Part shown: one piece after another, positions 1,237 through 20,552 of the stretch
How positions within the stretch are numbered: position 1 is the first letter of the stretch
Layout: each line of letters opens with the position of its first letter
From: a virus
Strand: one strand, 5' to 3'
IMG/VR virus record: IMGVR_UViG_3300042539_000517
Coordinates: 1-30,179 of that record
Length of the DNA: 30,179 nucleotides
Notes under the pieces: model-generated
Database searches by the model: none
Seen by the model: the letters and a program-made list of their open reading frames with translations, nothing else
What the model was told of the DNA's origin: nothing
Program-made: the position numbers and the translations under genes

Positions 1237-1762
1237 TTGCCTCCTGAATTATCTCAATTGGCTCTACTACTCCTGTAATCTGAGACAGTCTTCTTGCTAC
1301 ATCCATTTTGCATTTTGGACAAGAGGCCGTAACTTCTTTTAATATTTTAACTAAAATATCTTGCTTATGTTCTGTTTGTGCAATTTGATCTGCCATCTCG
1401 GCATTATCTAATAGGCCAACCTCTTTAAGCATGGCAATTCTTTTAGTTTCAATATCTGAAATTAATTTAAGGGCATTGGCTTTAACATTTAATTGGCCTG
1501 CCTGATCTGCATCCTCTACTGTTTTCCATGCCTCTTTAATTAACATAGAGTAATGTTGGTCCGCTCCTGAGATAGCTTCCTTAGCCCGTTCCTTAGAGCT
1601 TGTATCGTTGTATACGACGGTTTTCCACTCGTCTATAAGTTCTAGTACGTCTGAACGTTTATAGCCCGTTAGAGAGGCAATCTGGGTCGGATTGTTGCCC
1701 TTTAAAAGTTCGGCAACAACTTTATTCATTCGATCAAAATGATCTGATAATTCAATTTCCAT
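1226..1762 (-). CDS. terS: Probable terminase small subunit
   Basis: This 178-residue protein most likely recognises phage DNA for packaging. Residues 23-47 form a helix-turn-helix (NPTQIASLTGYKRSDVLELI), and the middle (60-145) is strongly helical, which suits oligomerisation. A CPKC pair at 148-151 near the C-terminus could hold a metal, but no second Cys pair is present to complete a ribbon. The assignment rests on size, the N-terminal HTH and its position directly upstream of and overlapping the terminase large subunit. The ATG at 1762 has no Shine-Dalgarno sequence. It sits about two bases downstream of the predicted start of transcription from the promoter at 1771-1799, so translation may be leaderless. 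It could instead be an unrelated HTH regulator, but the gene order argues against that. Confidence 0.72.
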   Translation of the reverse strand: MEIELSDHFDRMNKVVAELLKGNNPTQIASLTGYKRSDVLELIDEWKTVVYNDTSSKERAKEAISGADQHYSMLIKEAWKTVEDADQAGQLNVKANALKLISDIETKRIAMLKEVGLLDNAEMADQIAQTEHKQDILVKILKEVTASCPKCKMDVARRLSQITGVVEPIEIIQEANGS

Positions 1763-1770
1763 ATATATGT

Positions 1771-1799
1771 ATTATAATTCTAGTTGACTAAAAAGTCAA
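1771..1799 (-). promoter_or_regulatory. Sigma70-type promoter for the terminase genes
   Basis: On the minus strand there is a -35 box TTGACT (1799-1794), a 17-base spacer and a perfect -10 box TATAAT (1776-1771). The predicted transcription start is near 1764, two bases before the terS ATG. The -35 box forms one arm of a perfect 6-base inverted repeat (1784-1799). Confidence 0.8.
1784..1799. repeat. Inverted repeat over the terminase -35 box (candidate operator)
   Basis: TTGACT and AGTCAA are perfect inverted arms separated by four bases. One arm is the -35 hexamer, so a dimeric protein bound here would occlude RNA polymerase. It could also act as a weak hairpin in read-through mRNA from the upstream genes. 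No second copy was noticed in the window. Confidence 0.4.
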
Positions 1800-2119
1800 T
1801 TAGATTTGGCTATTTTATATAATATTAGGTAGCCAATTAAGTCATCTATATCATTATCTCCAGCAAATCCTTTATTATTTTTTACTCTATTTAATTTATC
1901 ATCAATTCTTACCTTTAATTGCTCTGTTGAGTCCGCCGTTGAAAATATTCTAATTGGCTCTAAGGCTGAATTGCCATAGGATATATTTTTTTCAATTAAC
2001 ATTTGAGCAATTTCTAAACAAGAATTTAATATTTTATTTCCAGCTGGGGCGCTGACTGCATGTAAGTATAGGTCTTCGTATCTAAATTCTTTTACATCTC
2101 TAAATACTGGCTTTAACAT
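1796..2119 (-). CDS. DUF1599/Nmad1-like small phage protein
   Basis: This 107-residue protein has the pattern of the DUF1599 family, also called nucleotide modification associated domain 1. A helix with KNISYGNSALEP (about residues 44-55) is followed by EQLKVRIDDKLNRV (66-79) and a C-terminal DIDDLIGYLILYKIA helix. The family is known from phage genomes and was linked by comparative genomics to base modification, but I know of no reaction proven for this type. It starts at a TAATG junction with the nucleotidyltransferase gene upstream, so it belongs to the sugar cassette operon. The terminase -35 box overlaps its stop codon. Family assignment is from remembered pattern only. Confidence 0.55.
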   Translation of the reverse strand: MLKPVFRDVKEFRYEDLYLHAVSAPAGNKILNSCLEIAQMLIEKNISYGNSALEPIRIFSTADSTEQLKVRIDDKLNRVKNNKGFAGDNDIDDLIGYLILYKIAKSN

Positions 2120-2784
2120 TACGCATCCATTTCTTTATATAATTGTTTTAATCCTCTTAGCGTTCCAATATCCATATACTGTCCGCCTGGTCTTACCGCC
2201 TTAATATTAGAACCCCTAGATATCCATTCCTTTAATTGTTTTCCTGGATGATCTAGTGTTGTATCTATGTATCTTATCATATTCTTTTGGAATAGCATAG
2301 TGCCCCACATATCTGGGTAATCACAATTATCTACCTTGTCTTCTGAACCAATTACTTTATCTTGGGATACTAAAACTTGACCGACACGTCCCTTTAATAT
2401 TTCTCCGCATTCCCAAATTCCTAGAACAAGGTCGGCAGTATTGTCTTTAAATAGAGGCTTGTATATATTTCCAGGTGCATTTAATATATATGTATCTGGC
2501 ATTCCAATAAGCACTGTATCGTTATACTCGCCCACCATAAACTTTACTGCATCTGACATTGTTGAAGGCTCACGAACAATTAGTTTAATATTCATGTCCA
2601 TATTTTGAATAATTGGAACCCACTCAGCTCTTGTAGATACTCTAACCTCATCACACACTTCAAGCATTTGTTCTACGTGCCATTGTAAAAGAGATCTTTC
2701 GTCTGATATAGGTAAACAAAATTTAGGAATGCCACCAATTCTAGAAGCTTTTCCAGATGCTGGCAATACTCCTATAACACTCAT
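2119..2784 (-). CDS. Sugar-phosphate nucleotidyltransferase
   Basis: This enzyme probably activates a sugar phosphate with an NTP to give an NDP-sugar. The N-terminus carries the nucleotidyltransferase signature LPASGKASRIGG followed by PKFCLPI. A GMPDTY segment provides the metal-binding Asp near residue 97, and a late MDIGT motif is typical of glucose-1-phosphate thymidylyl/uridylyltransferases. I chose the ATG at 2784 (221 residues) because it makes an ATGA overlap with the stop of the glycosyltransferase gene. An ATG at 2796 would add four residues but has no better ribosome site. Adjacent to a GT32-type transferase, it likely supplies that enzyme's donor. It is shorter than cellular homologues and lacks a C-terminal left-handed beta-helix. 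Confidence 0.82.
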   Translation of the reverse strand: MSVIGVLPASGKASRIGGIPKFCLPISDERSLLQWHVEQMLEVCDEVRVSTRAEWVPIIQNMDMNIKLIVREPSTMSDAVKFMVGEYNDTVLIGMPDTYILNAPGNIYKPLFKDNTADLVLGIWECGEILKGRVGQVLVSQDKVIGSEDKVDNCDYPDMWGTMLFQKNMIRYIDTTLDHPGKQLKEWISRGSNIKAVRPGGQYMDIGTLRGLKQLYKEMDA

Positions 2785-3542
2785 TCTTTTTCCCATTCAT
2801 GAGGATTAAATCCATTAGGATAAGATTCATTTACACGAGGATCTTTTTTCCAAGCAATCCATCCTGCTTCTCTGTCATCTCCCCAATAAAGATGGACTAC
2901 ATCTTTATCTAATAGCCTTCTGGCTTCTTCTCCACAAAGAATTTTTACTTTATTTTCTTTTAGAAAATCCATTTCCATAAGTTCTGGGGCCCACTCATTG
3001 ATATGTTTTTGATAAGGCTCAACGCCTAATTTTTTATATAGTGCATCTGTAAACATTTGAACATCAGTATAGTAATGAACCATATGATTATGTTGAATAA
3101 TTCCTTCAGAACATCTTTCAACACAAAGGTCTATTGCTGCCTTTAGTAGCGGATGTCCAGCTTTAGCGGCAATTGTTTGAGTTGCTAGCCATGGGGTATC
3201 TCTTTCGATATCTAAAATCATATCGTATTCAGGGCTTAACCAAGTATCTACTGGAGTCTTGCAGTGTGTGTCCATGTCTGTATATATCCCACCGTGAATA
3301 TAAAGAATAGCAAATCTCCATAAGCCAGCTTTCATTACTCCTAAAGGCAGGTTCACATAGGTCTCATATGTTTTTGAGTCGAAGTGTTCCTTAAAGAAGT
3401 TTTCCCTGTCTTGTCCACTCATGTAGCCATAAGCCCATCCTGGATTTTGATGAGTCCATGTCCCTACGCTTTCTTTAGCGTAAATTGGCAATTCATCAAA
3501 AATTGTTTCGTAAGTCTGCCAGATCTTTTTTTCTATACTCAT
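2781..3542 (-). CDS. GT32/OCH1-like glycosyltransferase
   Basis: This 253-residue protein is a probable retaining glycosyltransferase that moves a sugar from an NDP donor. It opens with KKIWQTYET and has the core LWRFAILYIHGGIYTDMDTHC at about residues 74-94. The YTDMD element holds the metal-binding DxD (Asp89, Asp91) characteristic of the Gly_transf_sug group that includes OCH1 and capsule enzymes. No membrane segment or signal peptide is seen, so it acts in the cytoplasm. A strong ribosome site (AAAGGAGATAAT) precedes the ATG. It overlaps the nucleotidyltransferase by four bases, pointing to a shared pathway. The acceptor (phage DNA base, virion protein or host glycan) cannot be read from sequence. 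Confidence 0.85.
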   Translation of the reverse strand: MSIEKKIWQTYETIFDELPIYAKESVGTWTHQNPGWAYGYMSGQDRENFFKEHFDSKTYETYVNLPLGVMKAGLWRFAILYIHGGIYTDMDTHCKTPVDTWLSPEYDMILDIERDTPWLATQTIAAKAGHPLLKAAIDLCVERCSEGIIQHNHMVHYYTDVQMFTDALYKKLGVEPYQKHINEWAPELMEMDFLKENKVKILCGEEARRLLDKDVVHLYWGDDREAGWIAWKKDPRVNESYPNGFNPHEWEKE

Positions 3543-3543
3543 A

Positions 3544-3690
3544 TTATCTCCTTTTAATTAATCCAAACTGATCCAGATATCTTTGTATTGTCATAGCAGA
3601 GACACTACACTCTATAGCAATTTCAGTAACAGTTTTCTTTTGAACAATATATCTACGATATAGCCAGTCTTTGCTTTGATATAGCTTCAT
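3544..3690 (-). CDS. Small helix-turn-helix protein (48 residues)
   Basis: This short gene begins with ATG at 3690, overlapping the stop of the RuvC-like gene as ATGA, and ends one base before the glycosyltransferase start. The product begins MKLYQSKDWLYRRY, and its second half, TVTEIAIECSVSAMTIQRYL, is a clear helix-turn-helix of the resolvase/transposase-like type: the stretch resembles an isolated C-terminal DNA-binding domain. It may regulate phage genes or act as a recombination accessory factor. Its last codons contain the ribosome site for the next gene. Size alone makes it easy to miss; the tight junctions on both sides support it as a real gene. Confidence 0.75.
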   Translation of the reverse strand: MKLYQSKDWLYRRYIVQKKTVTEIAIECSVSAMTIQRYLDQFGLIKRR

Positions 3691-4253
3691 CGTTTAGTTA
3701 ACACCTCATTTGAATAATGTGCGATGCCAAATGCATCTGCTACGTCAAAATCTGTTAATGATAATTTATATTTATTATTAAAATAATCTACAGTTCTTTG
3801 TTTACGCATATTGCGTAATTGATTCTTATACCAAGAATCTGCATAACCAGGATTTTTTAATCTTATTGCAGACTTTTCATCTTTCGTTGGATTTTTGTTG
3901 CCAATGAACGCCTGCCACGAGGATGGGCTAATAGTAATAACCTTAGCGCCAGTAGACATAAGCTCAGCAATAACAACTCCATATACATATGATAATTTTA
4001 TCACAGCATCAGGTGATCTGACAAGTATTGCTCCTTCTACTACAATATAATCTGACTTTAAATTATCTAACATTGCTGCCACTTTAATTTTAGCATCATG
4101 TATTTTTTCATATATGTCTGCGCCAGATAATTCAATTTTTCCCCACTTTAACGGAATATTATTTTCCATTAAACAAAACGCAACTGAGGTAGTAGAGGCA
4201 TCTATGCCTAGTACACGATATGCTTTTGTTTTAACTAGGCTAGCTAAGTTCAC
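3687..4253 (-). CDS. RuvC-like Holliday junction resolvase
   Basis: This 188-residue protein has the RNase H-like fold residues of RuvC. They are Asp18 in LGIDAST, Glu73 in YIVVEGAI, and Asp170/Asp173 in TDFDVADAFGIAHY. It would resolve branched DNA during recombination and before packaging. The start is a GTG at 4253 that overlaps the zinc-finger gene by 14 bases; no clear Shine-Dalgarno is seen, so translation is likely coupled. It sits downstream of a Cas4-like nuclease in a recombination block. The length is close to cellular RuvC. Substrate preference cannot be judged, and a role in debranching replication intermediates is equally possible. Confidence 0.82.
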   Translation of the reverse strand: MNLASLVKTKAYRVLGIDASTTSVAFCLMENNIPLKWGKIELSGADIYEKIHDAKIKVAAMLDNLKSDYIVVEGAILVRSPDAVIKLSYVYGVVIAELMSTGAKVITISPSSWQAFIGNKNPTKDEKSAIRLKNPGYADSWYKNQLRNMRKQRTVDYFNNKYKLSLTDFDVADAFGIAHYSNEVLTKR

Positions 4254-4518
4254 CTAATATACCCCATATCATTTTTTTACTTTCATATGTTATATTTTTT
4301 TCACATGTAGCACAAATATCATTTTGATTATATCTACTTAGTTTTGTTTTACAATGTTTACAAGATCTAACTGCGCCATTCTTAATAGCTTTTTTTTCGT
4401 AATACTTTTCCATAATTCTTTTGTTGGTTGCAATTCTGCAACACTCATCAGTACAATATTTTTGATTATGTGTTTTTGGATTAAAGTCTTTATTACATTC
4501 TTTATTTAAACAAATCAT
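4240..4518 (-). CDS. Two-zinc-finger small protein
   Basis: This 92-residue protein carries two cysteine groups. The first is C3-x4-C8 with C22-x3-C26 (and C27), within a KYCTDEC segment resembling treble-clef fingers. The second is C53-x2-C56 with C69-x2-C72. A basic helix of about 25 residues (30-50) separates them. Binding to DNA or to the neighbouring nucleases is likely but not shown. It starts with an ATGA overlap on the end of the Cas4-like gene. I do not recognise a named family. Confidence 0.7.
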   Translation of the reverse strand: MICLNKECNKDFNPKTHNQKYCTDECCRIATNKRIMEKYYEKKAIKNGAVRSCKHCKTKLSRYNQNDICATCEKNITYESKKMIWGILGELS

Positions 4519-5300
4519 ATTTTAGGAACCTCATATTGATCTATTTGTACTGTTCCTGTTAGGCCTGAATAGCATTCCTTTTTAATTGGACAATAGGTAC
4601 AAGGCATTTTAGATTTAGATGATCCCTTCGGGCGCATTGGTAGGTCTCCGTCTTTAAAATTATCCCAGACCTCACACATCCATAAAAAAGTATCTTCAAT
4701 AATTTTAGTATTTTTTTCATTCATTGAAACTGGTATTACTATAAGCTCTTGGGTGTTTTTGTTTTCATACAAAAAGAATCCTTCTTTAGCATTTTTTAAT
4801 TTCATATAAGTTAACAGTTGAAGCAAATGATTTGCAGTCGGCTTCATCTCTGATTGTCTTCCATCCCAAACCTCTTGTTTGGCAGTTTTAATTTCACCAA
4901 TTACTGTTTCATTATCATATTCCATAATTAAATCTATAAAGCCACGGATTGGAGGATATTCATTTACTATCTCTTCTTCTTCCGCTCTCCATTCTGGCAT
5001 TGTTTTAATTAAATTTTGTAGTCTTTCATGGGCTTGCGTACCTTGTGCCATGTTGGCAACTGCAACAGCATCGTTGTCGTCAATAAACATTGCTCCAGAA
5101 AAAGCCATGTACCAATATCTTGGGCAAGTCCCATGACCATACCCTAAAGAACTTGGACTAAAAGACTTCTTTGTCATTTCTCCATCAGCACGTTTTGTAT
5201 TTCTATATGATTCATCAAGCAATTGTGCAAATCGTTCTGGGTCAAAATGCTTTCCCGTATGTTTTTTAAATTTAAGATTTTTTACTATATCTCTACCCAT
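4515..5300 (-). CDS. Cas4/RecB-like PD-(D/E)XK exonuclease
   Basis: This 261-residue protein matches the Cas4-like branch of the RecB nuclease family. It has a lone Cys59 in the GTCPRYWY segment, His91, Asp123 in GFIDLIM, Glu136-x-Lys138 in GEIKTAK, and the Gln161 motif QLLTYM. The C-terminal triple C234-x2-C237-x5-C243 together with Cys59 would bind an iron-sulfur cluster. The whole catalytic set is intact. Phage members of this family act as single-strand exonucleases or recombination nucleases, and no CRISPR locus is present here. It starts at a TAATG junction with the upstream gene and is followed by zinc-finger and RuvC-like genes, so a recombination or end-processing role fits best. Confidence 0.85.
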   Translation of the reverse strand: MGRDIVKNLKFKKHTGKHFDPERFAQLLDESYRNTKRADGEMTKKSFSPSSLGYGHGTCPRYWYMAFSGAMFIDDNDAVAVANMAQGTQAHERLQNLIKTMPEWRAEEEEIVNEYPPIRGFIDLIMEYDNETVIGEIKTAKQEVWDGRQSEMKPTANHLLQLLTYMKLKNAKEGFFLYENKNTQELIVIPVSMNEKNTKIIEDTFLWMCEVWDNFKDGDLPMRPKGSSKSKMPCTYCPIKKECYSGLTGTVQIDQYEVPKI

Positions 5301-5635
5301 TATGAGCTATACCTAACGACATACTTAAGTGCATCTACAAGTTTGTCTATAGACTCCTTTGCTGAATAATAAATATTTTTCTTATTGTTGTTTACAGTTC
5401 CTGCTTTATCTTTTGCAATAGTAGAATATACTGACGCCATCATAGAAAATTTAGTTGACATAGCTTGAAGCTCTATAATTAAATATGGTGCTTTAGCAGA
5501 TGGAACATCTGGGTTCATTAATAACTTTACTACAATAGCCAACGCTTTATCTAACTGCTCATCATTCATGTACTCATGAAGATCGTTAAACTCAGTAATA
5601 GAATTAATTAACTCTAATGTGTTTTTATCTTCCAT
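5300..5635 (-). CDS. Conserved-looking helical phage protein, function unknown
   Basis: This 111-residue protein is almost entirely helical by composition (for example ELINSITEFNDLHEYM and the C-terminal SIDKLVDALKYVV). It has no cysteines, signal peptide or catalytic motif that I can see. It lies between a 41-residue gene and the Cas4-like nuclease, joined to both by one-base TAATG overlaps, so it is probably translated with them. A partner or adaptor for the recombination nucleases is possible on position alone. I do not recognise the family. Confidence 0.7.
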   Translation of the reverse strand: MEDKNTLELINSITEFNDLHEYMNDEQLDKALAIVVKLLMNPDVPSAKAPYLIIELQAMSTKFSMMASVYSTIAKDKAGTVNNNKKNIYYSAKESIDKLVDALKYVVRYSS

Positions 5636-5760
5636 TATTTATCCTTTTTTACTTTATATGGACCAAGATCGGCTTTAATAGTGCCATCTTTTCTAAGTCT
5701 TATAATTCTACCATTTTTAATAATTGTTTTATTAAAAGGTATTTTATTATTGCTTCCCAT
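5635..5760 (-). CDS. Small basic protein (41 residues)
   Basis: The ATG at 5760 opens a 41-codon frame that ends in TAATG, shared with the next gene. It overlaps the upstream nuclease-like gene by 14 bases. The product is lysine-rich (NKTIIKNGRIIRLRKDGTIK) with a beta-strand pattern reminiscent of a short KOW/SH3-like strand pair, but no family is recognised. It fills what would otherwise be a 111-base gap in a tightly packed operon, and the stop-start coupling is the main evidence that it is real. Confidence 0.6.
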   Translation of the reverse strand: MGSNNKIPFNKTIIKNGRIIRLRKDGTIKADLGPYKVKKDK

Positions 5761-6061
5761 TTTTATCCTCCCAGCATTCTACTAATTGTTCTAGCAAAGC
5801 CCATTCAATTACTGCCAGCCTGATTTTGCTACTAGATGGGCCAAGGATGAGTTTGAGTACTGGATTCTTATCCCTACTAACTTTAAAAGTATCTGTACAT
5901 ATCTTAGCCCAAATACTTTTTGAAATAGAGATTGATTTTTCGTACTCTTTATAATCCACCACAAAATTTTTCCATTGAGCGTCACCTTTTTGATAATCAC
6001 CACGTCCACTATTTTTTTGTTGTCTTGCGCCATCTCTTTTAGCCTCTGATCTTTCTGACAT
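5747..6061 (-). CDS. Probable PD-(D/E)XK Holliday-junction-resolvase-like nuclease
   Basis: This 104-residue protein shows the compact pattern of Hjc-like/VRR-type nucleases. A basic N-terminus with SGRGDYQKGD (residues 18-27) supplies acidic ligands Asp22 and Asp27, then VDYKEY gives Asp36-x-Lys38. A following ISISKSIWAKICTD helix resembles the segment after the catalytic strand in this fold. It would cleave branched DNA or DNA ends. The gene begins at 6061 just after the stop of its predecessor's neighbour in a string of small genes downstream of recA. The protein is small, and the motif is read by eye, so another PD-(D/E)XK role or an inactive relative is possible. Confidence 0.55.
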   Translation of the reverse strand: MSERSEAKRDGARQQKNSGRGDYQKGDAQWKNFVVDYKEYEKSISISKSIWAKICTDTFKVSRDKNPVLKLILGPSSSKIRLAVIEWALLEQLVECWEDKNGKQ

Positions 6062-6252
6062 TAGCCATTAACCTTAAATTGATTGTCATGTCCATCTGGA
6101 CATTTCCAAGAAATAGTAAATGTTGCTGGATCCCAAAATGCTTTTTCTGCATCTTTATCACACTTAGAACATGGCTTTGTTCCAGGTATTTCTTCAACTC
6201 CGTTTTTTTGTAAAATTTCAGGTTTATCAAAAAACTCTTTAAGATTTGGCAT
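6061..6252 (-). CDS. Small zinc-ribbon protein (63 residues)
   Basis: This short protein has C28-x2-C31 and C51-x3-H55 (KCPDGH), a plausible single zinc site in a ribbon fold with WDPATFTISW strands between. The ATG at 6252 overlaps the recA end by 14 bases and has a good ribosome site (TTAAGGAT). The competing frame over the same bases (start 6230) lacks a ribosome site and is rejected. It ends with TAATG into the nuclease-like gene. The function is unknown; its place between recA and a nuclease suggests a DNA metabolism partner. Confidence 0.65.
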   Translation of the reverse strand: MPNLKEFFDKPEILQKNGVEEIPGTKPCSKCDKDAEKAFWDPATFTISWKCPDGHDNQFKVNG

Positions 6253-7243
6253 TTATATCCTTAACTAGTTTATCAACAACCTTTGGATTTTCTTTTAAAT
6301 ACGCAACTGCTTTAGCACGACCTTGAAATCTTTCTCCATTAACTGTATACCAAGCGCCACCTTTTTCTACAATGCCACACATTTCTGCAACATCTAAAGA
6401 TTCTCCTACTTGATCTACTCCTAAAGTTTCTCCTTGGTAATAAAAATCATATTGTCCAGACAAATTTGGCGGACCAAGTTTATTATAATCAATAATCCAA
6501 TTAACTGGTCTTCCAACTCTTTGTTCAATAACTTTATCTCCGACTTTGACGCCGTCTTTAATAGCGTTAGCCTCAGCTTCAGAAGACCAAAGTTTAATAA
6601 CAGTAGAAGAAAAGAATTTTACTGCCATTCCTCCTGTTGGTATATGTGAAGCATGCATGGATCCAAATTGATTTCTTTGTTGAGAAATTAAAACAAGTAA
6701 TGTATTTTTATTAGCATAATTTAACATCTTAACTGCATGTGTCATATCTTTTGCTTCTGCGCCTATTTGTTTTGTATCCTGCAAATCTTTTAATTCATTT
6801 CCATCTTTTTCAAAATAAATTGCTGGCAGCAATGCCGAGATAGAGTCTACAACAATAATGTCAACTTCTGCTTCCATTAATTTTGTTGCAACATCTACCA
6901 TATCATTTACTGTTTTTGCGGATGAGTATATTAATTTAGATGAGTCTACCCCAAGTTTTTCTGCCCACGATTGATCATATGATGCCTCTGCATCTATCCA
7001 TGCACAAGACTTGCCTTCTTTTTGCGCCATAGCAATCATTTGTAAACAAAACGAAGATTTACCAGCAGACTTATTGCCCCAAACCAATACCTGTCTACCA
7101 AAACCTAGTCCACCTTTTAACGCCATGTTTAAACCAATACTTGGAGTAAGTTGTTTTTCTACTTTTATATTTTGTGCTGACTGTACTCTTGCTCTTGTTT
7201 TTGGATCTAATTTTGATAATATATCATCTATTAAAATTGTCAT
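6239..7243 (-). CDS. recA: RecA recombinase
   Basis: This 334-residue protein is a RecA family strand-exchange ATPase. The Walker A loop is GNKSAGKSS at residues 56-64, and the Walker B is IIVVDS at about 129-134, followed by the SALLP segment. An ISQQRNQFGSM stretch matches the conserved region after the L1 loop. The C-terminus is slightly shorter than in bacterial RecA. It would coat single strands for recombination-dependent replication and repair, together with the ssDNA-binding protein and the nucleases encoded nearby. An AGAGAGAAG ribosome site precedes the ATG, and an extended -10 element (7267-7275) lies just upstream. It belongs to the phage branch near UvsX/RecA; I cannot say which is closest. 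Confidence 0.92.
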   Translation of the reverse strand: MTILIDDILSKLDPKTRARVQSAQNIKVEKQLTPSIGLNMALKGGLGFGRQVLVWGNKSAGKSSFCLQMIAMAQKEGKSCAWIDAEASYDQSWAEKLGVDSSKLIYSSAKTVNDMVDVATKLMEAEVDIIVVDSISALLPAIYFEKDGNELKDLQDTKQIGAEAKDMTHAVKMLNYANKNTLLVLISQQRNQFGSMHASHIPTGGMAVKFFSSTVIKLWSSEAEANAIKDGVKVGDKVIEQRVGRPVNWIIDYNKLGPPNLSGQYDFYYQGETLGVDQVGESLDVAEMCGIVEKGGAWYTVNGERFQGRAKAVAYLKENPKVVDKLVKDINAKS

Positions 7244-7584: not shown

Positions 7585-10500
7585 TTTATTTCCTTTATCA
7601 TTAGGGTTCCATCTTCTAATTTTGATAGAACGGGTTTGCTTTTCATTCCTTCACGCATTCTTGCTAACACCTTAGCATACATTGCTGGGAATGCTATTGC
7701 TCGTGTGAGCTGTTTATTTTTATCTGTCATAACAATATGCGCCATTGTTTTGCCAGCTTTAGTTTTATATGGATTAAAGTTAATAACTAATTGTTCGTCA
7801 TCTTCTAAATCATATTCTTTTCTATATAAATAGTCTACAAAAAGATCTGACCCATTTGGATCTATATCATTTACTTTAATATACCTTGCAATACGATTAT
7901 CTCCAACAAGAATAAAATACATCTGCCCTGTTTCAATTTGCGTCTGCTCATTATGGAATAAACCTATTGATCCAGTTTCATCTACTAATTCTACTCTTGC
8001 CCACCCAGTACCACGCTTAATACTTTTAACCATTCCAAACATTGGGAATGATCCTAAATCATCAAAATCTTGAATTGGTTTTGCTTGAGCTTTAATTCTT
8101 GGTGGTATTGATTCTAAATTAAATGTAGGAATACCTAAGTATTCGTAGTAGTTTTCTTTTTCCTTACCGTCTCTGAGATTGTCCTCAAAAGCAGCACCGC
8201 CAATAGCATTAAGAGCAGATACAGCCCTACTGTTAATCCCGCTGCCTTTCGCAGAGGCTTTTTGTACGAAATCGGAATAATTGGCATATGGCCTTCTTTC
8301 TATAATTTTATTTGCAATACTGTCTGAGATAAATTTAACTTCAGCTAAACCAAATTGAATTGCTTTTTCTTTTAATGAAAAATATACATCTGACTCATTA
8401 ATGTGTGGCAGCAATACTTTAAGATTTAATCTTTTAGCCTCAATTAAATATTCTGTTCTTTTGTCTTTATCGTTTTCGTTTTTAAGAATTGAAAAAATAA
8501 ATTCAAGCGGGTAATAATGTTTAAGCCAAGCCGTATAATAACTAAGCATGGAATAAGCAACAGCGTGACTACGATTAAAAGAATAACCTGCGTGAGCTTC
8601 AAAATCATGCCATAGGGATTCCGCTTTCTTTTTAGAAATGTGTTTTGAAGCCCCATTAACAAATTGATCCTTGAACTGGTCGAACTCTTTTGCATCTTTC
8701 TTCTTTCCAATAATCTTGCGGACCTTGTCAGCCTCTGACCAAGACATACCACCTAAATGTACGCAAGCCTGCATAACCTGCTCTTGATATATGATAACAC
8801 CATATGTATTCTCAGTAAAAGGTTTCATTATTTCATGAACATAGCTAACTGCTTCTAGGCCATGTTTTCTACTAATGTATGAGGCACCCACTGTATTCAT
8901 TGCTCCTGGTCTAACTAAAGCGTTAGATGCAGCAAGGTCTTCAAACTTGTCTACTCCCATTTTAATTAATAGATTTGTATAGGGAGTTGCTTCAGCTTGG
9001 AATACTCCTTTTGTGTATCCTTCGCTCAATGTTTTATAAACATCTTTATCATCAAATGGTAAACTAGATAAAACAATTTCTTTATTGTGTCTTTCTTTAA
9101 CTGCTTTTATTGTATCTGAAATTACTGATAATGTCTTTAATCCTAGAGCATCTAATTTAATTAAACCAATATCTGCTACAGTATCCATATCGTAAGCAAC
9201 AACTGGTATTCTTCCTGAAACTTTATCTTGAGCATCCTCACGAGATTCAATAGGTGCAAAATTTCTTAAATCATCTTTTGCAACTACAACTCCAGCAGCA
9301 TGAACTCCAACGCTTCTAATCTTTCCACGTAATCTTTCTGCAAGCCATACAACTTCTGGATACTTCATTCTAAATTCTTTTGTGTTAGGAGACTCTATAA
9401 AATCTTCAAATGTATCAATTGATTTCATGGCACGATTAACATCTGAAAGCGGGACCATAAATACACGAGCAGCGTCTCTAACAACACCCTTGTCTTTAAA
9501 ATAAGTATAGGTTGAAATAGAGGCTACGTGCTTAAATTTCTTTTTAAGATAGTCTTTAACCTCTTTACGGCGACGATCTTCAAAGTCAGTATCAATATCT
9601 GGGAAGTCATTTCTTTCAGGGTTAATAAATCGGAAAAACAATAGGTCATATTCAATTGGATCTACATCGGTAATTCCTAGCGCATAACATACTAGTGAGC
9701 CTGCAGCAGATCCACGTCCAGGACCAACCATAATATTATTTTCTTTAGCCCAATTAATCATATCGGCTACAACTAGAAAATAAGAAGCAAATGATTTATC
9801 TTTAATTATTTCTAACTCTTCAACTAATCTTTGCTCATATGTATCATTGCCTAGCCATGACGAGGTCAGGTGTAGTGTTTCTAGGCCTTTGAAGGCCATC
9901 TGGGAAAGCTTTTCATCTGCATCTGTCTTAGGTACTGGCAGGAGGTCTAGACCCCTGTTAAAATCGTATTCTCCAATTTTTTCAGATATCTCAATAGTAT
10001 TATCATAAATGTCTGTTCGTTTAATATTACATTTATTAAAATCAGATTCTATTTCTTCTCTACTCTGAATAAATAAATTGTAATTTTGAAATGATATTCT
10101 TCTGTCTGGATAAAGATAATTAAATCTATCTAACATATTATTCATATTTCTAGACATTTCAAAGTCTGCTTCTTTATCTGATTTAGGTGATGTAGACAAT
10201 ATAAGCATTGCCTCTTCTAATATTTTATCTTCACCCTTAGCATAATGAGCATCACCTGTTGCCACTGGCTTTATATCTAGTTTATCCGCTAATTCTAACA
10301 GCTTACTATTTATTTCTTCGGGGTTATGAGATTGAACTTCAATATAAAAATCTTTGCCAAAAGTTTTCTTAAAGTCTTTAAGTATATTTTCCGCTTCCTC
10401 AAATTCTCCTTTTTCAATGCATTTACTAATAAGGCCGTTAAGGCATCCAGAAAGAACAATAATATCTTCTGCATATTCTTTTAGTACCTCCCTATCAATT

Positions 10501-17375: not shown

Positions 17376-17583
17376 TTGTTACCTTTTCTAATTCGCTTTG
17401 TAATGCTTGTTTTTTTGCAAATGCATTTTCTAGCTGTAATTCTAAAGCATCTACTGAGTCTTGATTAATTGGAGTCACTGCGGACTCTTGAATAATTAAC
17501 ATATTTATATTAAAAATATTATTTACAATGCTTTTTAAGTGCACATTAATAATATCAATTTTTTCTTGTTTTTCTAAATCCAT
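17359..17583 (-). CDS. Small coiled-coil protein (74 residues)
   Basis: Two helices are evident, EKIDIINVHLKSIVNNIFNI near the start and SVDALELQLENAFAKKQALQSEL near the end, with a short Pro-containing turn between. It begins at a TAATG junction with the Cys-cluster gene. Together with the following 62-residue protein it forms a pair of small helical proteins next to the fibre genes, perhaps structural or chaperone components. The function is unknown. Confidence 0.6.
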   Translation of the reverse strand: MDLEKQEKIDIINVHLKSIVNNIFNINMLIIQESAVTPINQDSVDALELQLENAFAKKQALQSELEKVTNEPGE

Positions 17584-17858
17584 TAAATAACATCCTTAGT
17601 CTCTGTTACTGGTCCCCATTTTCCGAGAGGGCATCCAGCATGAGGAAGCTTTGCTTTTTCTGTCATAAAGCATCCACACTTTTTGCAAGTTTTTGTTGCT
17701 TTAATTAATGACGGACAATTTAAACAATGGTTTTCATATCTATATTTAAATGTATCATCATCTACTCTTCCAATTTTTGGATTTAATAAATCCCAGGGTC
17801 TAACTTTATCCCCAGCATTTTTTTCTTTCCATATTTGAAAAGGTGTTTTTTGTGACAT
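17583..17858 (-). CDS. DUF6171-like cysteine-cluster protein
   Basis: This 91-residue protein contains C45-x2-C48, C58-x2-C61-x-C63 and C76, in the context HCLNCPSLIKATKTCKKCGCFM and CPLGKWGP. This matches a small zinc-binding family that I recall as DUF6171, which occurs near tail fibre genes in many phages, including marine ones. The six cysteines could bind one or two metals. It may be an accessory of fibre assembly, but the role is not established. It sits between two short genes in the operon driven from 18112-18140. Confidence 0.65.
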   Translation of the reverse strand: MSQKTPFQIWKEKNAGDKVRPWDLLNPKIGRVDDDTFKYRYENHCLNCPSLIKATKTCKKCGCFMTEKAKLPHAGCPLGKWGPVTETKDVI

Positions 17859-18146: not shown

Positions 18147-20552
18147 TTAGGCTGAGAAATTGTCTAACGTACTACCTTGATTTTCTGTTGCTGTCATTGC
18201 AATTACTCCAACAGCTGTTCCCTTAGACCCTGAATAAGTATAATTTGCTGCTCCAGAAAGTCCTCCAACCCACCCAATTCCAGAAATTGAGTCTCCTAGG
18301 GTTGTTGCAGAAACTTTAGTTATTGGTACGTAATATATTGTACTATATGCGGTTCCAGGTTCACCTGTAAATGTGGCTACGGTTTGTGATGAAATTAAAG
18401 TAGGAGTTCCGCTAGTAAACTGGTACATTTTTACTTTTGAATTATATGTATATTTAAATGTATTAACTTCTTTTACTGCATTATAGTATTTTGTAGTTAC
18501 TTGAGTTGTAATATCTTGTCTTACTTTATATTTATAAGTTATAGTAGTAACATCTTCATAAGCATTTGTTGACCATGTATATCCTTGTTGTCTAATTGCA
18601 TAAGTATAATATGTTATTGTTTGATTTTGATAAGCATTAGTTGAATAACTATAAGCTTGTACTCTAACTGAATAGCTATAGCTTGTTGTTGTTGTGGTTT
18701 GAGATTCATTTGTTGACCAGCTAGAGGTTGTTGTTGTTACACTTTGTCTTACAGCATAACTATTTGTTGTAGTACTATTTGCTCGACATATTGTATAATT
18801 ATATCTTAACCTATCTCCAGTTCCAGATGTTCCAGTAAATGAACATGCCAGCCCTACTCTACTTGCGTTACAACTTCCCGTTGATTGTGTTGATGCAAAT
18901 GTACCTGATCCAGTACATGAATAAGATGTTGAAGTGCTAGGAGAACATGCACCGCATCGGTCTCCAGCATTTGGTCCAGTATCTGGACAAGATGTTGAGC
19001 TGCTAGAACCAGTACAAAGATTTGAAGTTGATGTAGATGAACTACATGATGAACATCTTTGCCCAACAGAACTTCCAGTACCTGGGCAAGATCCTCCAGA
19101 TCCAGATCCAGAACAAGTTATTGATGTAGAAGAGTCTATGTTTAAAGAACAAGATCCACATCTATCTCCTACGTTTGGTCCAGTATCTGGGCATGAACTA
19201 GTTGTAGTAGAACCACTGCATGATGCAAAAGAGTTACAAGCACCACATCTTTGTCCTACAGAACTTCCAGTACCTGGGCAAGATGTTGAGCTATCAGATC
19301 CAGAACAGGTTAATACAGAAACTGTTTCTGGTTCTCCAGAACATGATCCACATCTATCTCCTACGTTTGGTCCAGTATCTGGGCAAGATGTAGAAACTTG
19401 TGATCCAGTACATACTGCTGTGGAATTACAGGCGCTGCATCTTTGTCCAACACTACTTCCAGTACCTGGACAAGAGCTCCCAGAGCTAGACCCAGAACAA
19501 GTTAGTACAGAAGATGTGCTTGAAACTTCTTGACATACTGTACATCTATCTCCACCCAATGATCCAAAATCTGGACAGGTTGATGTAGTAACATAGATTT
19601 CTCCAGTAGGACATTGACTAGTTGTTACATTTGTTGTTGATGTGGTACATGCACTACATCTTAATCCAACATCGTTAGATGTATATCCAGGAGATTGTGG
19701 ATTTGAACCTAAAGTTGCTAAGGGTGGACAATCTTCTGTTTCTGGATTTAATACATAAGTTATATTACTATCACACTCATAACTAAATGCTTGTTCGGAT
19801 ACATATTCATAATCTGGTACTACTGACCAAAAAGAAGAAGTTGAGTCTACCCATACTGCTACTCCTAAACCGCCACCAAAAGTATCAACAGAAACTGATT
19901 GATTACTGTTTACAGAATCAACTGTTTTCATAGGATAAGAAGATCCAGAATTATTTACTGCTCTACTTCCATTTACACTCCATGTAGCATTACTTCTTGA
20001 CGGTCCACTGTAAATAAATCCACTACTTGCTGTACCTAAACCACTTGCAACAGTTCTATTAAAATTGTCTTCTAAAGATGGAAGGTTTGCTTCTATTGGT
20101 GGAGTGCTGTAATAATAGTATGTTTCATTATCTACTCCAAGCACTTCATCTCTTGCATAAAAATAATATTGTGGTACGGTTGCGTCATACTGGGTAATTG
20201 TATATGGATTTGTAGCGGTTATATTACCACCGCTAGGATCAGTAGTCGATGCTGATACTTGTTCTGCAACTTCGGTTGTATAAAATATTCTAGTAATTAA
20301 TGAATTATAATTGCTGTATGTTCCAGAAGATCTGGTTACTGTTGTACCAACTCTACCAGTTCCAGTTAATGTAGGCCTAGTTATTTGTATTGGTTGATTT
20401 GAACCACTAAATGTTTTTTTCCATAAAGTAGAAGTAACTTTAACGTAAACATTGTTTACCGCTTTCCATAATGTAGGAGTTACTTTAACATATACTTTAT
20501 TTACCTGTTTCCATAAACCACTGGTAACTTTAACATAAGCTTTTGCTGACAT
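18147..20552 (-). CDS. Large repeat-rich tail/fibre protein with four-Cys array
   Basis: This 801-residue protein is built from several repeat types. Residues 5-49 hold three 15-residue units of the form YVKVTxTLWKxVN, a signature I associate with actinophage tail proteins. Residues 160-246 resemble a laminin-G/lectin-like sandwich. Residues 260-589 contain 36 cysteines. Six units at 352-536 have exactly the spacing C-x8-C-x10-C-x2-C, alternating CPGTGSSVGQRC and CPDTGPNVGDRC types with a 64-residue period. Residues 600-680 hold Tyr/Thr/Ser-rich repeats with a 24-residue period (STN at 613, 637, 661). A Gly/Ala-rich C-terminus follows. It starts at a TAATG junction with the FN3 protein. A receptor-binding or adhesive role is inferred; the array may form disulfides or bind zinc. 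Confidence 0.75.
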   Translation of the reverse strand: MSAKAYVKVTSGLWKQVNKVYVKVTPTLWKAVNNVYVKVTSTLWKKTFSGSNQPIQITRPTLTGTGRVGTTVTRSSGTYSNYNSLITRIFYTTEVAEQVSASTTDPSGGNITATNPYTITQYDATVPQYYFYARDEVLGVDNETYYYYSTPPIEANLPSLEDNFNRTVASGLGTASSGFIYSGPSRSNATWSVNGSRAVNNSGSSYPMKTVDSVNSNQSVSVDTFGGGLGVAVWVDSTSSFWSVVPDYEYVSEQAFSYECDSNITYVLNPETEDCPPLATLGSNPQSPGYTSNDVGLRCSACTTSTTNVTTSQCPTGEIYVTTSTCPDFGSLGGDRCTVCQEVSSTSSVLTCSGSSSGSSCPGTGSSVGQRCSACNSTAVCTGSQVSTSCPDTGPNVGDRCGSCSGEPETVSVLTCSGSDSSTSCPGTGSSVGQRCGACNSFASCSGSTTTSSCPDTGPNVGDRCGSCSLNIDSSTSITCSGSGSGGSCPGTGSSVGQRCSSCSSSTSTSNLCTGSSSSTSCPDTGPNAGDRCGACSPSTSTSYSCTGSGTFASTQSTGSCNASRVGLACSFTGTSGTGDRLRYNYTICRANSTTTNSYAVRQSVTTTTSSWSTNESQTTTTTSYSYSVRVQAYSYSTNAYQNQTITYYTYAIRQQGYTWSTNAYEDVTTITYKYKVRQDITTQVTTKYYNAVKEVNTFKYTYNSKVKMYQFTSGTPTLISSQTVATFTGEPGTAYSTIYYVPITKVSATTLGDSISGIGWVGGLSGAANYTYSGSKGTAVGVIAMTATENQGSTLDNFSA
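18945..19499. repeat. Tandem 192-base repeats encoding the four-Cys units
   Basis: Within the large tail gene the coding DNA repeats with a period of 192 bases (64 codons). One 41-base stretch is identical at 19153-19193 and 19345-19385, and related copies of another stretch lie near 19054, 19247 and 19439. Each period encodes one pair of four-Cys units. Confidence 0.85.

Follow-up and report, generated by a model that had tools for sequence, protein, structure and literature searches.

Lectin-like tail tips and disulfide bonds in phage tails are both already known. According to the part of the report available, the tip C-terminal domain (CTD) of the central fibre of phage Douge binds mycobacterial surface glycans, and its residues 689–878 have a fold similar to that of the carbohydrate-binding module (CBM) of BppU (PMC13033339). 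Phage Milano, as described in the accessible text of PMC10811340, has a disulfide-rich tail and receptor-binding proteins (RBPs) with jelly-roll CTDs. A similar principle outside phages is the "stalk and knob" of the bovine ultralong third complementarity-determining region of the antibody heavy chain (CDR-H3), in which a conserved β-sandwich bears one long hairpin insertion with a disulfide-rich knob of variable cysteine number and pattern (PMC5994613, in the sections available). Here, a virus fragment of 30,179 bases (IMG/VR record IMGVR_UViG_3300042539_000517, positions 1 to 30,179; the window) is described, one gene of which encodes an 801-amino-acid tail protein with an array of 36 cysteines. 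On the evidence of models and alignment, the array is most of a predicted insertion of ~450 residues inside one hairpin of a lectin-like jelly roll. For this putative combination, in which the tail-tip jelly roll is conserved and the cysteine-rich knobs at a single site of it differ, no match was found in the libraries searched or among the titles listed by literature searches aimed at it.

The gene occupies positions 18147–20552 on the minus strand, as do all segments of the protein given below, and is the last large gene of the tail module. All 36 cysteines lie within residues 260–589 (18786–19775), exactly where the original prediction, made by a model from the letters of the DNA, had located them. 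Six successive units, starting at residues 352, 381, 416, 445, 480 and 513 and ending at residue 536 (18945–19499), keep the predicted spacing C-x8-C-x10-C-x2-C without deviation. When residues 260–589 were shuffled 20,000 times, 19,915 shuffles contained no exact unit, 85 contained one and none contained more. Two unit types alternate, separated by linkers of 5, 11, 5, 11 and 9 residues, and a 192-nt tandem double unit detected by Tandem Repeats Finder underlies the alternation. The less regular units reported on both sides have spacings of 14-23-2 from residue 260, 11-10-2 from residue 314 and, after the exact units, 14-8-18 from residue 546; the 36 cysteines thus fall into nine sets of four. 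Among seven further tail genes whose cysteines were counted, six encode 0–2 and one encodes four. In 13 of 15 comparisons between unit copies, differences were most frequent at third codon positions, and the repeat is therefore a constrained duplication, not a fresh one. An antisense open reading frame (ORF) of 199 codons (18934–19533, plus strand) overlaps the array and is probably a by-product of the codon usage of the repeat.

Relatives, referred to by locus number, were collected by scans that used the array or halves of the jelly roll resembling those of the window, which gave a small group (L001–L009, L017–L022, L054/L055, L066, L069 and, doubtfully, L070), and by a scan with the N-terminal half (N-half) of distant members, which gave 76 loci with 43 distinct tails, some near-identical. 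Five of the 43 (L071, L072, L074, L100 and L110) are on contigs that had already been found. Together with the window protein, L002, L003 and L007 they make 47 proteins. A hidden Markov model (HMM) of the C-terminal half (C-half) found it in 46 of these; the 47th, L121, was dropped, being on a contig that ends before the C-half. L003 and L110 fall into the same group, and counts of lineages are hence safer than counts of proteins. All 43 distinct relatives come from uncultivated phages, and each has at least six cysteines from the beginning of the jelly roll onwards. The proposal that cysteine-rich arrays are rare in phage tail fibres thus holds for the isolate records searched and fails for uncultivated phages, from which one scan produced all 43.

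Both halves of the jelly roll are kept in the 46 proteins, which form 20 lineages at 60% jelly-roll identity, and the insert is located at the same site in each. Inserts comprise 88–528 residues with 6–44 cysteines and are rich in Ser, Thr and Gly. The jelly roll ends at most nine residues from the C terminus in all 46, and the parts that precede it vary from 13 to 497 residues, which indicates that the jelly roll and its insert together make up a single terminal module borne by different proteins. The exact spacing occurs in six units of L002 and seven of L003, both close relatives, and in two units of the distant L054; there are no exact units in L007 and L020. Beyond these, cysteine patterns are quite different and include 20-residue two-cysteine repeats in L134 (CPSGGSLSGSTC), C-x15-CC in L092, CNC repeats in L076, CYQT and CNPYN micro-repeats in L117, C-x13-C-x2-C in L095 and C-x16-C-x13-C-x2-C in L066. 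The exact spacing is therefore one local form, multiplied by duplication, of an insert that varies greatly, and what homologues conserve is the cysteine-rich insert as such and not the spacing emphasised in the original prediction.

Three loci show further arrangements. L131 has two adjacent paralogues of the family (1446–3230 and 3510–5849) with eight cysteines each. In L122, the family member (4869–6539) is upstream of an ORF (9169–10263) that appears contractile-sheath-like by eye and has only a weak match to a PHROG of unknown function; the module may thus occur in myophages too. L070, a record with WhiB, includes a gene (4980–6194) with a related N-half and no cysteine insert, possibly an insert-free form. 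As an insert-free ancestral jelly roll it is a lead, not proof, since the match covers just 37 profile columns (probability 76).

Comparison with the relatives revealed two conserved halves, one on each side of the array, which correspond in the window protein to residues 156–250 (19803–20087) and residues 701–801 (18150–18452; ending ...STLDNFSA). Both were recognised by the family HMM and by fold matches spanning the insert. The insertion between them, residues ~251–700 (18453–19802; boundaries accurate to about 10 residues), is flanked by long predicted strands on both sides. Its cysteine-rich part is followed by a returning segment, residues 590–690 (18483–18785), that is rich in Tyr, Thr and Ser, lacks cysteine and has some strands predicted at very low confidence.

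Two AlphaFold models were made. That of the whole window protein, from six sequences, has a mean predicted local distance difference test score (pLDDT) of 31, with values above 50 only around strands 240–260 and 693–712 and the following sheet; its best structural matches were Douge central fibre gp20 and CBM66 (Z 6.8). That of relative L069, which has a short insert and 343 residues, was made without templates and has a predicted template modelling score of 0.47 and a mean pLDDT of 44, with later jelly-roll blocks mostly at 50–82. Its matches include GH43 β-sandwiches (Z 11.6 over 160 residues), CBM66 (Z 11.3, 134 residues), Douge central fibre gp20 (Z 10.7, 146–152 residues), the Douge BppU CBM (Z 9.6) and plant lectins (Z 9.2–9.7). 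By the structure-search tool's own note, Z 7–8 is typical without a clear match; 291 of the 997 aligned chains reached at least Z 8. The alignments among the 50 best listed run from residue 12–21 to residue 343 and yet cover 134–168 residues, i.e. both halves are aligned and the insert is skipped, which places it outside the fold. A Foldseek search of BFVD also matched six proteins of uncultured Caudovirales, with E values no higher than 1.3e-8. With high confidence, the array protein is thus predicted to carry a split jelly roll of the ConA/CBM66-like type.

The best fold matches (Z 11.1–11.6) were to CBM66 of Bacillus subtilis and to the C-terminal β-sandwich of GH43 proteins, both in the ConA-like superfamily; unlike the phage module, these domains span ~160–210 residues by their chain ranges and have no room for such an insertion. 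CBM66 and GH43 domains are free-standing or linked to enzymes. The CTD of Douge gp20 (residues 689–878; PDB 8ZDP, 8ZDQ) shares the fold class and the C-terminal position on a tail-tip protein of an actinobacterial phage, and by analogy a glycan-binding role is likely for the phage module. In contrast to these similarities, no sequence similarity to Douge gp20 was found, and the available part of its report mentions no cysteine-rich insertion and does not contain the word "disulfide" (PMC13033339).

The number of cysteines in the insert is even in 46 of 46 proteins and in 20 of 20 lineages (2^-20, ~1e-6, if lineages are independent). The jelly-roll core has none, except for one cysteine in a single lineage (the L086 group). 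Among the remaining ORFs of these loci, after dereplication, those with at least four cysteines had even numbers in 16 cases and odd numbers in 10. These counts bear on a zinc-binding rod, one of the roles proposed in the original prediction, in which each four-cysteine unit would hold one zinc ion. All-cysteine zinc sites exist, a zinc rod would suit folding in the reducing cytoplasm, and the window array can be divided into nine four-cysteine units, eight of which end in CxxC. The six exact units fit a four-cysteine zinc-array pattern, but the family counts and free spacing do not. Insert counts include 6, 10, 14, 22, 26, 30, 34 and 38, which are even but not multiples of four; 12 of the 20 lineages have only multiples of four and eight include other counts, about what pairs alone would give. 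The spacings C1-C2 and C2-C3 vary widely across relatives, and the window array has no histidine. Even counts, often not multiples of four, and varied spacing thus favour disulfides, the other bonding scheme originally proposed, and make a zinc rod improbable. It is very likely from the cysteine counts that the inserts are held by intrachain disulfides.

Inserts usually diverge faster than the scaffold that carries them. The jelly rolls of L082 and L090 are 97% identical and their inserts 63%; for L082 and L085, the values are 75% and 27%. In 14 hand-chosen pairs, not all independent, nonsynonymous divergence (dN) was higher in the insert than in the N-half in 12, and the ratio of dN to synonymous divergence (dS) in the insert was below 1 in all 14. 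The inserts are therefore coding and constrained by purifying selection, yet usually faster-diverging than the scaffold. Higher dS in several inserts suggests exchange. The same data address an artefact of frame, assembly or low-complexity noise: repeats are prone to assembly error and an antisense ORF overlaps the array, but the gene recurs in other contigs with its frame intact, the architecture is found in 20 lineages and coding constraint is seen in every pair, so that an artefact has a negligible probability.

The family resembles phage RBPs diversified by diversity-generating retroelements (DGRs), in which a conserved scaffold is combined with a variable host-contact surface. Unlike in DGR targets, variation here affects length, repeats and cysteine pattern, and a DGR origin was rejected as no RVT_1 reverse transcriptase was found in the 26 records searched, some of them fragments. 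The likeness to the bovine CDR-H3 is one of working principle, not of homology: according to the part of PMC5994613 available, the latter is up to about 70 residues long and diversified in antibody genes. Its YxYxY stalk feature occurs in only part of the phage family. Alternating aromatics of the bovine kind were seen in 14 of 46 proteins on the ascending and 13 of 46 on the descending side, and a general alternating-tyrosine stalk was accordingly rejected.

A mechanism can be proposed in which the array gene would encode the tail-tip, receptor-contact protein of an actinophage, its tail-tip position being indicated by synteny and C-terminal location. The C-terminal ConA/CBM66-like jelly roll would be split by one very long β-hairpin insertion, whose two strands leave the sandwich as a ribbon. 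The inserted segment may fold back on itself into small units with intrachain disulfides, giving a finger or knob on the tip; models and alignment suggest that it projects sideways at one hairpin. Its cysteines would be oxidised once the protein leaves the reducing cytoplasm. The scaffold would stay constant, whereas tandem duplication and probably exchange would replace, lengthen or shorten the knob, giving relatives very dissimilar surfaces. An envelope glycan or protein of the host is the probable target of the knob, which would act alone or with the lectin face. Host contact by the insert, suggested by analogy with the Douge tip and by insert variability, is moderately probable, and the same can be said of the entire proposal of a variable disulfide-rich knob on a lectin-like tail-tip scaffold that touches the host.

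Several results weigh against this proposal. Model confidence is low for both proteins (mean pLDDT as given above), the Z of 6.8 for the window model is within reach of unrelated models, the first 60 residues of L069, the start of the N-half, have pLDDT of 23–38, and its insert is not modelled (about 23–29). Neither profile nor single-sequence searches with the joined jelly roll linked it significantly to any known family. The insert boundaries behind the parity in 46 of 46 proteins were set by the analyst; when every cysteine between the start of the jelly roll and the C terminus was counted, which brings in the single core cysteine of the L086 group, numbers were even in 42 of 46 proteins and 19 of 20 lineages (binomial p 2e-5), and at 50% identity in 13 of 14 lineages (p 9e-4). 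Duplication of units with even cysteine numbers accounts for part of this evenness, and these p-values hence overstate independence. The parity control is small (six even and four odd with at least six cysteines; four even and none odd with at least eight), and a cruder earlier control gave five even and six odd with 4–5 cysteines and six even and none odd with 6–9, while a wider list includes a family paralogue and a seven-cysteine ORF. No positive selection on average was detected in the 14 pairs. In some comparisons the insert is the better-conserved part: the window and L003 inserts are 75% identical as against 65% for the scaffold, and the L054 array is 51% identical to that of the window as against 30% in the C-half.

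The last comparison, together with the Ser/Thr/Gly-rich composition, the tandem repeats and the wide range of insert length, would suit a disulfide-stabilised structural spacer that stiffens or extends the tip without contacting the host. A spacer would be expected to join domains, whereas the insert leaves from and comes back to one and the same hairpin and should project sideways. In all 46 proteins it is in the C-terminal domain, and in several pairs with near-identical scaffolds it is the divergent part. The spacer is therefore considered unlikely, though less so than the zinc rod. Another alternative is a redox latch, in which disulfides keep the tip closed and their reduction or reshuffling at the cell surface triggers ejection. 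Thioredoxin-family genes are present in four of 14 relatives' records (L017, L020, L022 and L069), and a link from these to disulfide chemistry is conjectural; glutaredoxin exceeded the cut-off in none of the 14, with one below it. Thioredoxin is common in phages, and none was found in the window record, a fragment. In Milano, by the accessible text, the bonds join different tail proteins, RBPs included, with no cysteine-rich array in one loop (PMC10811340), whereas the even counts here suggest pairing within the chain. A latch is improbable, to about the same degree as the zinc rod.

If the host-contact knob is real, it would be a receptor-contact module of uncultivated phages, mostly actinobacterial, for which the family libraries and isolate records searched gave no counterpart, and tail tips would be diversified through the exchange of disulfide-rich loops on an unchanging scaffold. 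A further puzzle would be the route by which as many as 22 disulfides form in phage proteins synthesised in the cytoplasm. The disulfide claim can be tested directly through the even-cysteine rule, and natural disulfide-rich binders might be drawn from these modules.

The original prediction, which knew of no described family with this spacing, agrees with the searches. The window protein matched no Pfam family at E 1 and had no significant PHROGs match, only scattered sub-threshold ones; the best PDB match by sequence was an antibody chain at E 0.024, which is not significant, and small cysteine-rich folds can escape such searches. Pfam at E 1 gave nothing for L054, L020 and L007 and one sub-threshold match each for L003, L069 and L066. 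Four joined jelly-roll sequences had no Pfam match at E 10, and among 16 lineage members five families were each hit by one member (best E 0.026), none significantly. The only clear PHROG match within a family member was found outside the jelly roll, between residues 402–503 of L131 and phrog_6977 (minor tail protein); L122 and L109 have weak N-terminal PHROG matches. In tblastn searches of 50,697 phage records, the window protein had no match at E 0.01. With all queries (the whole proteins of the window, L020, L054, L122 and L134, the C-terminal domains of L131 and L088, and the joined window jelly roll; limits E 0.01–10), the best match (E 0.07) was to an endonuclease/methyltransferase region of Mycobacterium phages and was judged to be due to chance, and the second (E 0.08) involved 46 N-terminal residues of L122 only. 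Of two genome-contig scans, one gave no match and the other a single 27-residue match in a Bacteroidaceae metagenome-assembled genome (L047), crossed by no plus-strand ORF longer than 150 aa. No such cysteine-rich phage tail inserts were described in the titles and abstract starts among the matches listed from the open-access PMC literature.

The tail context assumed in the original prediction is borne out by the neighbouring genes, which match tail PHROGs. The order tape measure, minor tail proteins, 801-aa gene and replication genes is that of Streptomyces phage NootNoot (Stanwilliamsviridae; one reference), which has at the matching place a 2000-aa minor tail protein with three cysteines. 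Pfam confirmed a DnaB-type helicase, primase, DnaE and RecA in the window; a phosphoesterase and a single-stranded DNA-binding protein at NootNoot-matching places were assigned by eye and have no Pfam match. The terminase DNA is ~71% identical to that of Streptomyces phages over 635 bases, and the 680-aa tail protein of the window has homologues in 127 Streptomyces and three Rhodococcus phage records. By terminase similarity and tail-to-replication gene order, and not as formal taxonomy, the window appears to come from a Stanwilliamsviridae-like actinophage. WhiB, which serves as an actinophage marker in the portions available of PMC6802176 and PMC10202952, exceeded the cut-off in 15 of 30 hand-chosen relatives' records (7/14 and 8/16), including 13 of the 14 longer than 60 kb, some of which are near-duplicates and one of which is L070; none was found in the window fragment. 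WhiB and synteny together indicate actinobacterial hosts.

The N-terminal part of the 801-aa protein begins with three 15-aa repeats YVKVTxxLWKxVNx (residues 1–45; 20418–20552), encoded by 45-nt direct repeats and kept in relatives, which are possibly an attachment region. A conserved domain follows at residues 52–155 (20088–20399); it is kept in relatives, has no Pfam match and, judged by eye, is presumably immunoglobulin-like. Near the array gene, a 91-aa protein with six cysteines (CxxC...CxxCxC) is encoded at 17583–17858 on the minus strand and has a sub-threshold Pfam match to DUF6171. Adjacent genes at 2119–3542, also on the minus strand, encode an NTP-transferase-like protein and a DXD glycosyltransferase (Pfam NTP_transf_3 and Gly_transf_sug).
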